From the NCBI GenBank assembly GCA_016842085.1, contig JAEVEX010000044.1, forward strand, positions 124,001-188,000: 64,000 bases of DNA. The letters run 5' to 3'. The stretch's first letter is position 1; each line of letters begins with the position of its first letter. Origin of the DNA: Candidatus Thermoflexus tengchongensis. GTDB lineage: Bacteria; Chloroflexota; Anaerolineae; Thermoflexales; Thermoflexaceae. The notes beneath the pieces were generated by a model. That model ran no database searches. It had not been told where the DNA came from and was given only the letters and a program-made list of their open reading frames with translations. Below, piece after piece: positions 56,391-61,571 of the stretch. Both the position numbers and the translations under genes were made by a program.

Positions 56391-57017
56391 TCATCGAAAC
56401 CATCGGGCCTCCTCCGGGCTCGTGCCCAGAGCGTCCGGATTCTCCCGGTCCAGATGCCAGCGCAGGGGGTTCATGGCGATATATTCCCGGATGCGTTGCA
56501 GGGATGGTTCGTTGCGGATGATGTGTTCGTAGTAATTGCGTTGCCAGACGGGGGCACCGGGCGTGCCCCGCAGGGCGTTAATGCGGCGGGTGGTAACGGA
56601 TTTGAACGAACCCACAATCGCACCAACCGACCCCTGCGATGGCCCCGTAGGATGGACGGGATGCGATGGCGGTAGGGGCGACGGGGATGTTGGTTGTAGG
56701 GGCGACGCGGATGTTTGGTGTAGGGGCGACGCATGCGTCGCCCCTACATCGCCGATGACGATGATTCCATGAATATGGTTGGGCATCACAACAAATGCGT
56801 CCAACGCCACATGCGGGAAATGGATGGGGATTTCCCGCCAGCACTGTTCTACAATTTGTCCCCACGCATTCAACCGCATCTGCCCGTCCACGACCTCGCC
56901 GAAGAGGCACTCCCGCATGTAGGTGCACACCGTGATGAAATACGCGCCGGGCTGGGTGTAATCGTAACCCTTCAGGCGAATACTGCGCCGATGGTGCTTT
57001 TCCGGGTTGTAGGGCAT
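56391..57017 (-). CDS. Y1/REP-associated tyrosine transposase (RAYT-like)
   Basis: The 208-residue protein is a single-tyrosine HUH transposase: RRSIRLKGYDYTQPGAYFIT at the start, the metal-binding HxH in MPNHIHGIIVI, GSFKSVTTRRIN and the catalytic Tyr region QRNYYEHIIRNE, then YIAMNPLRWHLD. RAYTs mobilise short extragenic palindromes (REPs). A run of ~30 residues after MPNHIHGIIVIG (DVGATHASPLHQTSASPL and on) is encoded by three palindrome-derived units at 56672-56747. ATG 57017 has GGAGGG 9 nt upstream. It sits in the island between the target-recognition gene and the small ORF, with palindromes on both sides. Confidence 0.88.
   Translation of the reverse strand: MPYNPEKHHRRSIRLKGYDYTQPGAYFITVCTYMRECLFGEVVDGQMRLNAWGQIVEQCWREIPIHFPHVALDAFVVMPNHIHGIIVIGDVGATHASPLHQTSASPLQPTSPSPLPPSHPVHPTGPSQGSVGAIVGSFKSVTTRRINALRGTPGAPVWQRNYYEHIIRNEPSLQRIREYIAMNPLRWHLDRENPDALGTSPEEARWFR
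56672..56747. repeat. Tandem type C palindrome units inside the Y1 transposase gene
   Basis: Two 24-bp units that each start GTAGGGGCGACG (56672 and 56696) precede a perfect 28-bp palindrome at 56720-56747 (arms GTAGGGGCGACGCA). All are in frame with the transposase and add 8-residue peptides ending SPL. Confidence 0.85.
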
Positions 57018-57042
57018 GGCGTCGATTCCCTCCGATGGAATG

Positions 57043-57070
57043 GTAGGGGCATGGCATGCCCTGCCCCTAC
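57043..57070. repeat. 28-bp palindrome, type B
   Basis: GTAGGGGCA / TGCCCCTAC arms around a GGCATGCC centre, between the target-recognition gene and the Y1 transposase start. Confidence 0.8.
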
Positions 57071-58577: not shown

Positions 58578-58580
58578 GGT

Positions 58581-61571
58581 TCAGTCCTCCAGTTCGTCTG
58601 TCACGTCTTCGACGATGACGGGTTCCTTACCGTATAAGAATACACGATAACGCCGGCCCTTCTCCAGGATGGTGAAGAAGATGTCGGGTGCCCGCAGATA
58701 TTTGCCGCCCCATTTGTTGCCGGCGTAGGGGCGGAGGTCTATCTCCGCAAAGGCCCGGGCGGCGCGCCCCCGGCGGGCAGGGGCGACCCGCCGGGTAGGG
58801 GCGACCCGCTGGGTCGCCCCTACGTCTGGATCCGCCAGGCCCTCCTGATAAAGTGACCACTGGTCGTGGAGGATGGCACGGAACTCGGGACGCTGGAGCA
58901 CCCGGAAGCCGGCCAGGGATTGGTAGAGGCGTTCGTCCTCGATCTCGGAAAAGACCACCGGGCTCATGGCCTCCTCGAAGGGCACCCGGAAGGCGACGAA
59001 GCGTACGGGGCGGCGTTTCATCTCCGCCTCGCCCAGCGGGTGCCGGCGCTCCGGCGGACCGGCCAGGACGATGACGGTGTTCACGTCCGCCTGGGCGAAG
59101 GAACGCTTCGCCTGGTTGTCGATGATCATCTTCAGGTGGCCGAACCGCAGGAAGAACTCCTGGAGGTCTTTCCCGAAGTCCACATCCAGCCAGGAGTTGG
59201 AGGTGATGAAGCAGAAGGCGCCCCTTTCAGCCAGCAGGGAGAGGGCGTGGAGGTAGAAGTAGAGATAGTAATCGGCACGCCCGCTGATCCGGCGGGTCCC
59301 GCCCATAAAGCCTGGGTAGATCGCCCGCAGGCTTTCGTTGAGACGGTGGAGGTATTCGGCGCGGTCGAAGCGGCCCAGGTAGTCCCGGATTTTCTCCTGC
59401 CGCACGTAGGGCGGGTTGCCGATGACGATGTCGAAGCCAGGGTCGTCATCCTCGAAGATCTCCACGAAGGCCATATCCCAGACAAAGGGGGGCGGCCGGT
59501 CCGGGCGAAGGGCCGCTTTAGCGCTCTGGTAGCGCCCCAGCTGTTCCTCCAGTTCCTGGATCTCCGCCTCCAGGTGCTCCCGCTGCTCGGCGTTCGCTGG
59601 GGATGCCGGCATCCCGGGCAGAGGGGACTGCGCGGAAAGGCTCCGCAGCTGGCTGCGTTTCCCGGCCAGGGCGTTCCGCAGCTCGTGGATCCGGTGATCC
59701 AGGATGTCCCGGAAGAGGTCCTGCTCCTCTTTCCGCAGTCGCTCTTCGGTCAGCCCCTGTTCCTCCCCCTGGAAGAAGCGGCGCTTCCTGCCCTTGAGCT
59801 GGGTCAGACGCCCCCTGAGGGGAGAGGGGATAGGGAGCTCGCCCCGGCGGAAGGGGCTCAGGTCCAGGTCGCCCAGGGTCTGGAGGAGACTGTCGCCGGG
59901 TCGGAGTTTCAGGCTGAGGTTGGGGAGAAGCGGGCGGGCTTTCAACTCCCACCCCTGGAGCTCGGTTTCCACCACGAGTTGCAGCCAGAGGCGGAGTTCC
60001 GCCACCCGGACCGCCCATTCCATCACGTCCACGCCGTAGAGCTGGTCCTGGAGGATGCGCTTGCGGCGCTCGTAGGGGGTTTCGCTTTCCCCCAGCGCCT
60101 GGTTGCAGCGGGCCTGCAAATCGTCCAGGATGAGGAGCATCCCCACCAGGAAGGAGCCAGAGCCGCAGGCGGGGTCGCAGACCCGCACGCGCCGCACAAG
60201 ACGATGGAGGTCTTCCCAAAAGCCCTTTTCCGTAACCTCCTCGTCCGCTTCCCGCTTCTCCTCTTCGGAGAAGGCGAAGACCCAGCGATAGAGCAGGTTG
60301 GTATGCTCCTTCCCCAGATGATTGCGCAGCCAGTCCACCAGGGCCAGCCGACACATCAGGTCGATCTCCGTGCGCGGCGTATAGAAGATGCCGGCGGCGC
60401 CCCGGAGGTCCTCGCCCCCATCCCCGCTTTCAAAGGTCACATTGACCAGCCGCTCGTAGACCATCCCCAGCATCTCGGGATCGACGGCGACCTCTTCGTC
60501 GAAGCGCCCGCTCTCCACCACCGTGAAGTTGTAGCGCTCGAACAGACCGGGGAAGGTGCCGTCCGCCCAGCGCTCGAAGAGGAGCGCAAAAAGAGCGTCC
60601 GGTACCGGACGCCCCAGGCGATCATCCAGGCCAGGACGTCGGCGGTAGAGGCCGCCGTTGAGGTAAGGCGCCTGACTCAGGGAGCTCACCAGCCAGTCGG
60701 GGAATCGGTCCCGGTATTCCGCCCGGTTCTGCCAGCGGTTGTTGAAAGCCTCGAAGAGGAGGACATCCAGCCAGTCCCGGTGGAAGGCGTCCCTCGCCCC
60801 GGTTTGCCGGTAGGCTTCCCAGAAGTGGCGCATGAAGTCGCGATCGGGGCGGCCGTCCGGCCCCATGAGCCAGCCCTTACGGGCGATGAAGTAGAGGAAC
60901 ATGATGCGGTTCAGGAGCTGGTGGGCGTAGTCGCGCGCCCATTCGGGGCCGTTTCCCCGATGGGTGCGGATCAGATGGTCCCGGATCTGGATGAAAACCT
61001 CGCTGTAATCCCGATAGAACTGCTCAGTGACCCGCTGGACGCTGAAGGCCTCTTCATGGCGTTGCCAGATCGCCGCCGGATCCCGGATTCCGTCGGCCCG
61101 GATGCGGTCCAGAATCTCCAGGTCCGTGCGGTAGGGCTGGTCCCGCCGGACCTGCAGGATGCGGAGCCAGAGGCGCACTTTAGAGGGATCCCGGGGATCG
61201 GGCAGCCGGCGCGGGGAGACGAAGGCCAGCTCATCAGCCTGTCCTGACGCTGAAAAGACGAAGAGGTTCTCTCCCTGCGGAGAGTGCCGGTAATAGGCCT
61301 CCAGGAAGCGCCGGATGTCCGTGCGACGCAGGGGCACGGCATGCCCTGCCCCTACCAGTTCGACGTGAAAAATCCGGAATGAGGATCCATCGCCGATATG
61401 CACCAGCTGGACCACCGAACGGACCGCCTCCCGCACGGTCGTGGGCATGTCCTCCAGGTCCAGCGGAAGGGGGTCCATCACCGGGTAGCCCAGCGCCTCG
61501 AAGAAGGCTTTCGCGCCTTCCAGGGAGGTATAGCGAGAGAGGTGCGTTCTCACATGGTTCAGGTCCGGCAT
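58581..61571 (-). CDS. Eco57I-type N6-adenine DNA methyltransferase / restriction-modification chain
   Basis: The 996-residue protein has an N-terminal ~200-residue region of PD-(D/E)xK-like look (SSFRIFHVEL, QGENLFVFSASGQADELAFV), a helical region, the methyltransferase motif I VCDPACGSGSFLVGM (~465) and motif IV IGNPPYVRQEKIR (~717), with a coiled coil between (~600-680). It should methylate adenine, and the N-terminus may cut DNA as in type IIG enzymes. It ends at APDIFFTILEKG plus ~25 residues, where relatives continue into target recognition; that part is the gene at 57088-58239. Two in-frame palindromes lie inside (near residues 73-81 and 916-932). GGAGGTG precedes ATG 61571, which heads the island. 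Confidence 0.88.
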   Translation of the reverse strand: MPDLNHVRTHLSRYTSLEGAKAFFEALGYPVMDPLPLDLEDMPTTVREAVRSVVQLVHIGDGSSFRIFHVELVGAGHAVPLRRTDIRRFLEAYYRHSPQGENLFVFSASGQADELAFVSPRRLPDPRDPSKVRLWLRILQVRRDQPYRTDLEILDRIRADGIRDPAAIWQRHEEAFSVQRVTEQFYRDYSEVFIQIRDHLIRTHRGNGPEWARDYAHQLLNRIMFLYFIARKGWLMGPDGRPDRDFMRHFWEAYRQTGARDAFHRDWLDVLLFEAFNNRWQNRAEYRDRFPDWLVSSLSQAPYLNGGLYRRRPGLDDRLGRPVPDALFALLFERWADGTFPGLFERYNFTVVESGRFDEEVAVDPEMLGMVYERLVNVTFESGDGGEDLRGAAGIFYTPRTEIDLMCRLALVDWLRNHLGKEHTNLLYRWVFAFSEEEKREADEEVTEKGFWEDLHRLVRRVRVCDPACGSGSFLVGMLLILDDLQARCNQALGESETPYERRKRILQDQLYGVDVMEWAVRVAELRLWLQLVVETELQGWELKARPLLPNLSLKLRPGDSLLQTLGDLDLSPFRRGELPIPSPLRGRLTQLKGRKRRFFQGEEQGLTEERLRKEEQDLFRDILDHRIHELRNALAGKRSQLRSLSAQSPLPGMPASPANAEQREHLEAEIQELEEQLGRYQSAKAALRPDRPPPFVWDMAFVEIFEDDDPGFDIVIGNPPYVRQEKIRDYLGRFDRAEYLHRLNESLRAIYPGFMGGTRRISGRADYYLYFYLHALSLLAERGAFCFITSNSWLDVDFGKDLQEFFLRFGHLKMIIDNQAKRSFAQADVNTVIVLAGPPERRHPLGEAEMKRRPVRFVAFRVPFEEAMSPVVFSEIEDERLYQSLAGFRVLQRPEFRAILHDQWSLYQEGLADPDVGATQRVAPTRRVAPARRGRAARAFAEIDLRPYAGNKWGGKYLRAPDIFFTILEKGRRYRVFLYGKEPVIVEDVTDELED
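58776..58823. repeat. Type C palindrome with tandem half-unit inside the methyltransferase gene
   Basis: A perfect palindrome at 58795-58823 (arms GTAGGGGCGACCC, 3-nt loop) is preceded by a GCAGGGGCGACCCG half unit. Encodes VGATQRVAPTRRVAPAR, in the GTA GGG phase. Confidence 0.85.
61330..61355. repeat. Type B palindrome inside the methyltransferase gene
   Basis: AGGGGCA / TGCCCCT arms around GGCATGCC. Encodes VGAGHAVPL between FHVEL and RRTDIRRF of the N-terminal domain, again in the GTA GGG phase. Confidence 0.8.

Follow-up and report, generated by a model that had tools for sequence, protein, structure and literature searches.

Double-foot GTAG REP elements inside and around a RAYT transposase gene and an adjoining type IIG restriction-modification gene of Candidatus Thermoflexus tengchongensis

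Introduction

What kind of element are the palindromes that are read in frame inside neighboring genes of a Chloroflexota genome, and how did they come to be there? The question is raised by a stretch of 64,000 nt from Candidatus Thermoflexus tengchongensis (assembly GCA_016842085.1, contig JAEVEX010000044.1, positions 124,001 to 188,000), here called the window. The original prediction described GTAGGGG...CCCCTAC palindromes inserted in a single phase into three island genes, resembling the Rickettsia palindromic elements (RPE) and concentrated in defense genes. For this family of elements, the occurrence of REPs in genes, including RAYT genes, has been described before. In-frame GTAG REPs were reported inside many genes of many species, and the intragenic RPE-4 and RPE-6 were equated with CGTC REPs (Di Nocera 2013, PMC3733652). 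In subclass 2.4 of the TnpAREP transposases the REPs are double-foot, and REPs placed within tnpAREP genes in the part from HuH to Y predominate, the frame being undisrupted (Quentin 2018, PMC6006769).

Genes and palindromes of the locus

The three genes of the original prediction are the RAYT itself and two fragments of one restriction-modification (RM) gene. The features are as follows.

56307..56333, unstranded: REP in the 3' flank of the RAYT gene, 12-bp stem at 56309-56333
56391..57017, minus strand: RAYT / TnpAREP, HUH-Y1 transposase, 208 aa (Pfam, NCBIfam, fold match, conserved HUH and Y)
56672..56747, minus strand: REP cluster in the RAYT linker after the HUH motif, one perfect palindrome and two half-units, encoding VGATHASPLHQTSASPLQPTSPSPLPP (residues 91-117)
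57043..57070, unstranded: REP in the 5' flank of the RAYT gene
57088..58239, minus strand: C-terminal (specificity-like) half of a type IIG RM protein, 383 aa (homology to genome G208)
57762..57789, minus strand: REP in the C-terminal RM half, encoding VGRPGGSPL (residues 151-159)
58236..58577, minus strand: MntA-like nucleotidyltransferase gene between the RM halves (Pfam NTP_transf_2, 2.8e-14)
58581..61571, minus strand: N-terminal part of the type IIG RM protein (nuclease/N6-methylase), 996 aa (Pfam Eco57I, 1.4e-28; PADLOC REase_MTase_IIG)
58776..58823, minus strand: REP (58795-58823) and half-unit in the RM gene, encoding VGATQRVAPTRRVAPARRG (residues 917-935)
61330..61355, minus strand: imperfect REP in the RM gene, encoding VGAGHAVPL (residues 73-81)

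The presence of the palindromes was confirmed, and each of the four in-gene sites is read GTA GGG on the coding strand, as had been predicted. The RAYT gene holds a perfect 30-nt palindrome (56719-56748) with half-units starting at 56672 and 56696, and near-perfect palindromes are found at 57762-57789 and 58795-58823, the latter with an extra half-unit at 58776. The copy at 61330-61355 is imperfect, with GTAG on one side and CTGC on the other, so that one foot is intact. A double foot, GTAG or GT[AG]G at the 5' end and the complementary CTAC at the 3' end, is present at 56719-56748, 57043-57070, 57762-57789 and 58795-58823. An occurrence of GTAGGGGC at 58725 was discarded as a repeat; it consists of the conserved RPYAG.KWGG codons, which are present in homologues. 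A search of the window against Rfam gave nothing at gathering score.

The product of 56391-57017 has the HUH and Y1 core, the motifs and the fold of a REP transposase. It matches Y1_Tnp (PF01797) in Pfam, the first match of its predicted structure is 4er8 (TnpAREP bound to a REP hairpin), and HUH and Y are conserved across 35 homologues. The NCBIfam model REP_Tyr_transpos (NF047646) matches two separate stretches (3.9e-19) and stays below its curated cutoff, which is as expected if an insert divides the match. The probable start is MPYNPEK; an alternative GTG start at 57080 would take in a flanking REP. With REPs on both flanks and one in the linker of the RAYT, the region 56307-57070 forms a REPtron. 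Double-foot REPs and an in-frame REP within the variable HuH-Y region are features described for subclass 2.4, and on these features, rather than on Quentin's own profile, the RAYT is putatively assigned to that type. The palindromes are very probably double-foot GTAG REP elements that belong with this RAYT (TnpAREP subclass 2.4 / RAYT group 4 type).

Literature on these enzymes suggests how the elements could have spread. The HUH-tyrosine transposase would recognize the GTAG-footed hairpin in single-stranded DNA and would cleave and rejoin it, so that copies spread and become densest around its own gene. Copies in coding DNA would survive only where the frame stays open and the site is a tolerant loop, which would explain why in-frame peptides are found in linkers. 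These peptides have the form VGA..PL/APT in one open phase and RG..APT/RPY in the other.

The distribution of copies is that of a small dispersed family. The assembly (3.89 Mb, 100 contigs) contains 11 exact copies of the pattern GTAGGGGC(9-15 nt)GCCCCTAC, a low number for a REP family, and no copies of a reversed control pattern. Three of the 11 fall inside 2.1 kb of this locus (P about 1e-4 for random placement, by simulation). Eight lie outside the locus; judged from ORFs, none of nine other exact copies, including one just upstream of the RAYT gene, lies in a convincing gene, so that the family is mainly intergenic. A second palindrome family, GTAGGGCAACTGC..GCAGTTGCCCTAC, makes up most of the 66 matches to a looser pattern in this genome; its copies at 8245-8272, 16602-16631, 48281-48308 and 61665-61692 look intergenic where checked.

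Insertion or drift in the RM gene

An interruption of about 530 nt, which holds the MntA-like gene, divides the RM gene 57088-61571 into two ORFs; for the MntA-like gene NCBIfam MntA_antitoxin gives a match of 7.9e-14, below cutoff. RM homologues are one ORF of 1135-1298 aa. In G208, a genome of the same genus, the gene (locus L138) is a single ORF of 1298 aa with 78-80% identity to the pieces in the window; the C-terminal half is 80% identical to its residues 958-1298. A protein with PLD and SNF2 helicase domains, candidate-defense-like (PADLOC HKD+Snf2, 1.3e-78), is encoded near the RM gene at 51027-54245.

The original prediction called for a check of clean insertion and of whether the inserts form surface loops. 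In the predicted structures, which cover the RAYT and the larger RM piece, the inserts occupy loops of low confidence. The RAYT insert lies in a linker of low predicted confidence (pLDDT <50 at 94-104 and 107-110), the insert at 58776 in a predicted disordered linker (917-944, pLDDT <50), and that at 61330 in a loop between a strand (65-72) and a helix (83-96), with pLDDT <50 at 75-77. Clean insertion is not borne out at the RM sites. Compared with G208, the only useful same-genus homologue among nine genomes of the genus, the window is longer by 15 nt at 61330 (HVEL-VGAGHAVP-LRRTD vs HVEL-RGG-LRRTD), by about 12 nt at 58776, where the linker is variable in both genomes, and by 3 nt at 57762, where several homologues at greater distance are shorter by about 10 aa. 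These differences fall short of the full 28-29 nt, and a clean empty site was not found for any of the RM copies. Equivalent residues in repeat-free homologues, which would speak against insertion, are in part seen here as loops of similar length.

It could be considered that linker codons at some RM sites turned into palindromes resembling the nearby REPs, either by drift or by conversion through template switching. The similar-length loops at 57762 and 61330 would fit this, as would the conserved RPYAG codons at 58725, which already give a perfect GCCCCTAC foot. However, the 29-nt palindrome at 58795-58823 and intergenic copies of this genome are of one type, and it is improbable that several such sites arose by chance around a RAYT gene. 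We regard this origin as quite unlikely, and REP elements remain the preferred reading. The simplest reason for their presence in the RM gene is position, as the RAYT gene lies directly downstream.

For the RAYT itself the linker length varies widely among relatives. In a close same-genus RAYT (L270, genome G302, 66% identical) the linker is shorter and the hairpin is absent. The orthologous RAYTs L275 and L271 of the same genus share 98.4% of their aligned bases; one is 27 nt longer than the other, through an in-frame duplication of the REP segment.

Phase and host genes

Of the three phases in which such a palindrome can be read, two are open and the third contains TAG. The missing TAG-phase copies are no evidence, since a copy in that phase terminates its ORF and escapes the count. 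An element of the RPE type that invades proteins in a fixed, selected phase and is targeted to defense genes, as originally proposed, would be consistent with the GTA-GGG reading at all four sites in the window (chance about 1/8 that four sites share one of two open phases, with fewer than four of the sites independent). It would also agree with the RAYT linkers, which lean toward that phase (21 of 30). But the other nine linkers, in the second open phase, are scattered over the tree, and the RAYTs are related, so that 21:9 does not represent 30 independent events. A scan of public genomes found copies of the palindrome in many phyla, and the Pfam-verified genes other than RAYTs split 6:4 between the open phases. 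GTA-GGG was read in six ORFs with Pfam domains (DUF2142, RibD, TIR-FGE, Fib_succ_major, NUDIX/PNP, LGT) and the other open phase in four (OTC, DprA, Maf, TonB). This count leaves out long ORFs without Pfam domains around the cross-phylum copies, which were eight of ten in one scan, where the remaining cases were LGT and one other short case, and one in another scan.

The single phase is thus a property of the four window sites, and one-phase use fails when tabulated beyond them; phase bias as a sign of selection was rejected after the cross-genome count. The concentration in defense genes is reduced to one RM gene beside a RAYT gene. Most host genes elsewhere are not defense genes, with RibD, OTC, Maf, DprA and LGT among the range, and targeting of defense genes was discarded. 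A fixed-phase element directed at such genes is very improbable. The likeness to RPE is apt as an analogy, since palindromes are read in frame inside proteins in both cases (PMC3733652), but it does not extend to the element: RPE-4 and RPE-6 are CGTC-tagged, alphaproteobacterial and have no associated tyrosine transposase, whereas the feet are GTAG here and a RAYT is present at the locus.

Hairpins inside RAYT genes, nearly all of Chloroflexota

Of 58 RAYT genes, 34 (that of the window and 33 of 57 others) have a perfect stem of no fewer than 11 bp whose start lies at most 250 nt past the HUH motif, while such stems are rare elsewhere in the same ORFs. Fifty-five of the RAYTs, 31 with the stem, come from a sample of 301 Chloroflexota genomes that includes the genome under study; the remaining three were found via the palindrome itself and all have the stem. 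These findings agree with the description of subclass 2.4 (Quentin 2018, PMC6006769).

The recurrence at the same place raises the possibility that the intragenic hairpin, at least in RAYTs, is a functional element that is kept, either as a site of RAYT autoregulation acting on the gene or mRNA, or as the source copy of the REPs. The stems covary. In a set of 116 distinct palindromes, for which the outer feet were the sole basis of selection, Watson-Crick pairing holds at 89% of the inner positions, compared with 42% after shuffling, and in L160, L164, L184 and L221 both feet are changed with pairing kept (GTCGGGGC..GCCCCGAC, GCAGGGGC..GCCCCTGC). In G122, G150, G117 and G283 the copy in the RAYT is the only exact match of the genome to the searched pattern, as is also the case for a second pattern in G274, G232 and G206, although these counts cover exact matches only. 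Against a kept hairpin, 24 of the 58 RAYTs have no such stem, it is also absent from the close relative L270, and symmetry and diverse sequence are found as well in copies outside RAYTs. Palindrome-restoring copying could account for the symmetry without selection, and Quentin 2018 (PMC6006769) treats the region as peripheral. On balance a maintained, co-varying hairpin that serves as autoregulatory site or master copy, instead of being a tolerated insertion, appears unlikely.

About 360 nt before the HUH of L270 a REP lies at the exact center of a longer A/T-rich inverted repeat, and the two together form a perfect stem of 38 bp; the nesting is similar in L191 and L161.

RAYT genes next to type IIG RM genes

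The order of a type IIG-like RM gene followed directly by a RAYT gene on the same strand was found in the window and in three other genomes (G238, G088 and G166), from 20 RM loci.

56391-61571 of the window: RM-RAYT locus, same strand
6080-10371 of L248: RM-RAYT locus, same strand
6376-10493 of L255: RM-RAYT locus, same strand
5011-9354 of L266: RM-RAYT locus, same strand

The four genomes belong to different families and their RAYTs do not form one clade. A single origin of the RM-adjacent RAYTs was considered and is unsupported, as the tree needs five changes; the set also held a second, non-adjacent RAYT of G088, and the bootstrap had not settled. The order is not met in the REP and RAYT literature cited here. 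That RAYTs repeatedly settle immediately downstream of type IIG RM genes, a proposal separate from that of the kept hairpin, is equally doubtful.

Comparison with known systems and significance

The locus resembles the REPtrons of TnpAREP subclass 2.4 / RAYT group 4 in its GTAG..CTAC double-foot REPs that flank the transposase gene and lie inside it with the frame kept, in its NH[IFV]H, WQ and YIxxNP-type motifs and in its variable linker. Unlike the systems of Quentin 2018, it is found in Chloroflexota and adjoins a type IIG RM gene in which REPs are likewise present. It shares with the intragenic GTAG REPs of Di Nocera 2013 the in-frame palindromes in unrelated genes, often as grouped units; the stress there is on replication and repair genes, whereas the hosts in this locus are the RAYT gene and an RM gene.

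The locus provides a clear example from Chloroflexota of REP elements that extend proteins, including their own transposase, and it connects in-gene palindromes, which occur in many phyla, with a transposase family already known. Were the hairpin inside the RAYT gene functional, a transposase gene that recognizes itself would offer a tractable model of REP persistence.
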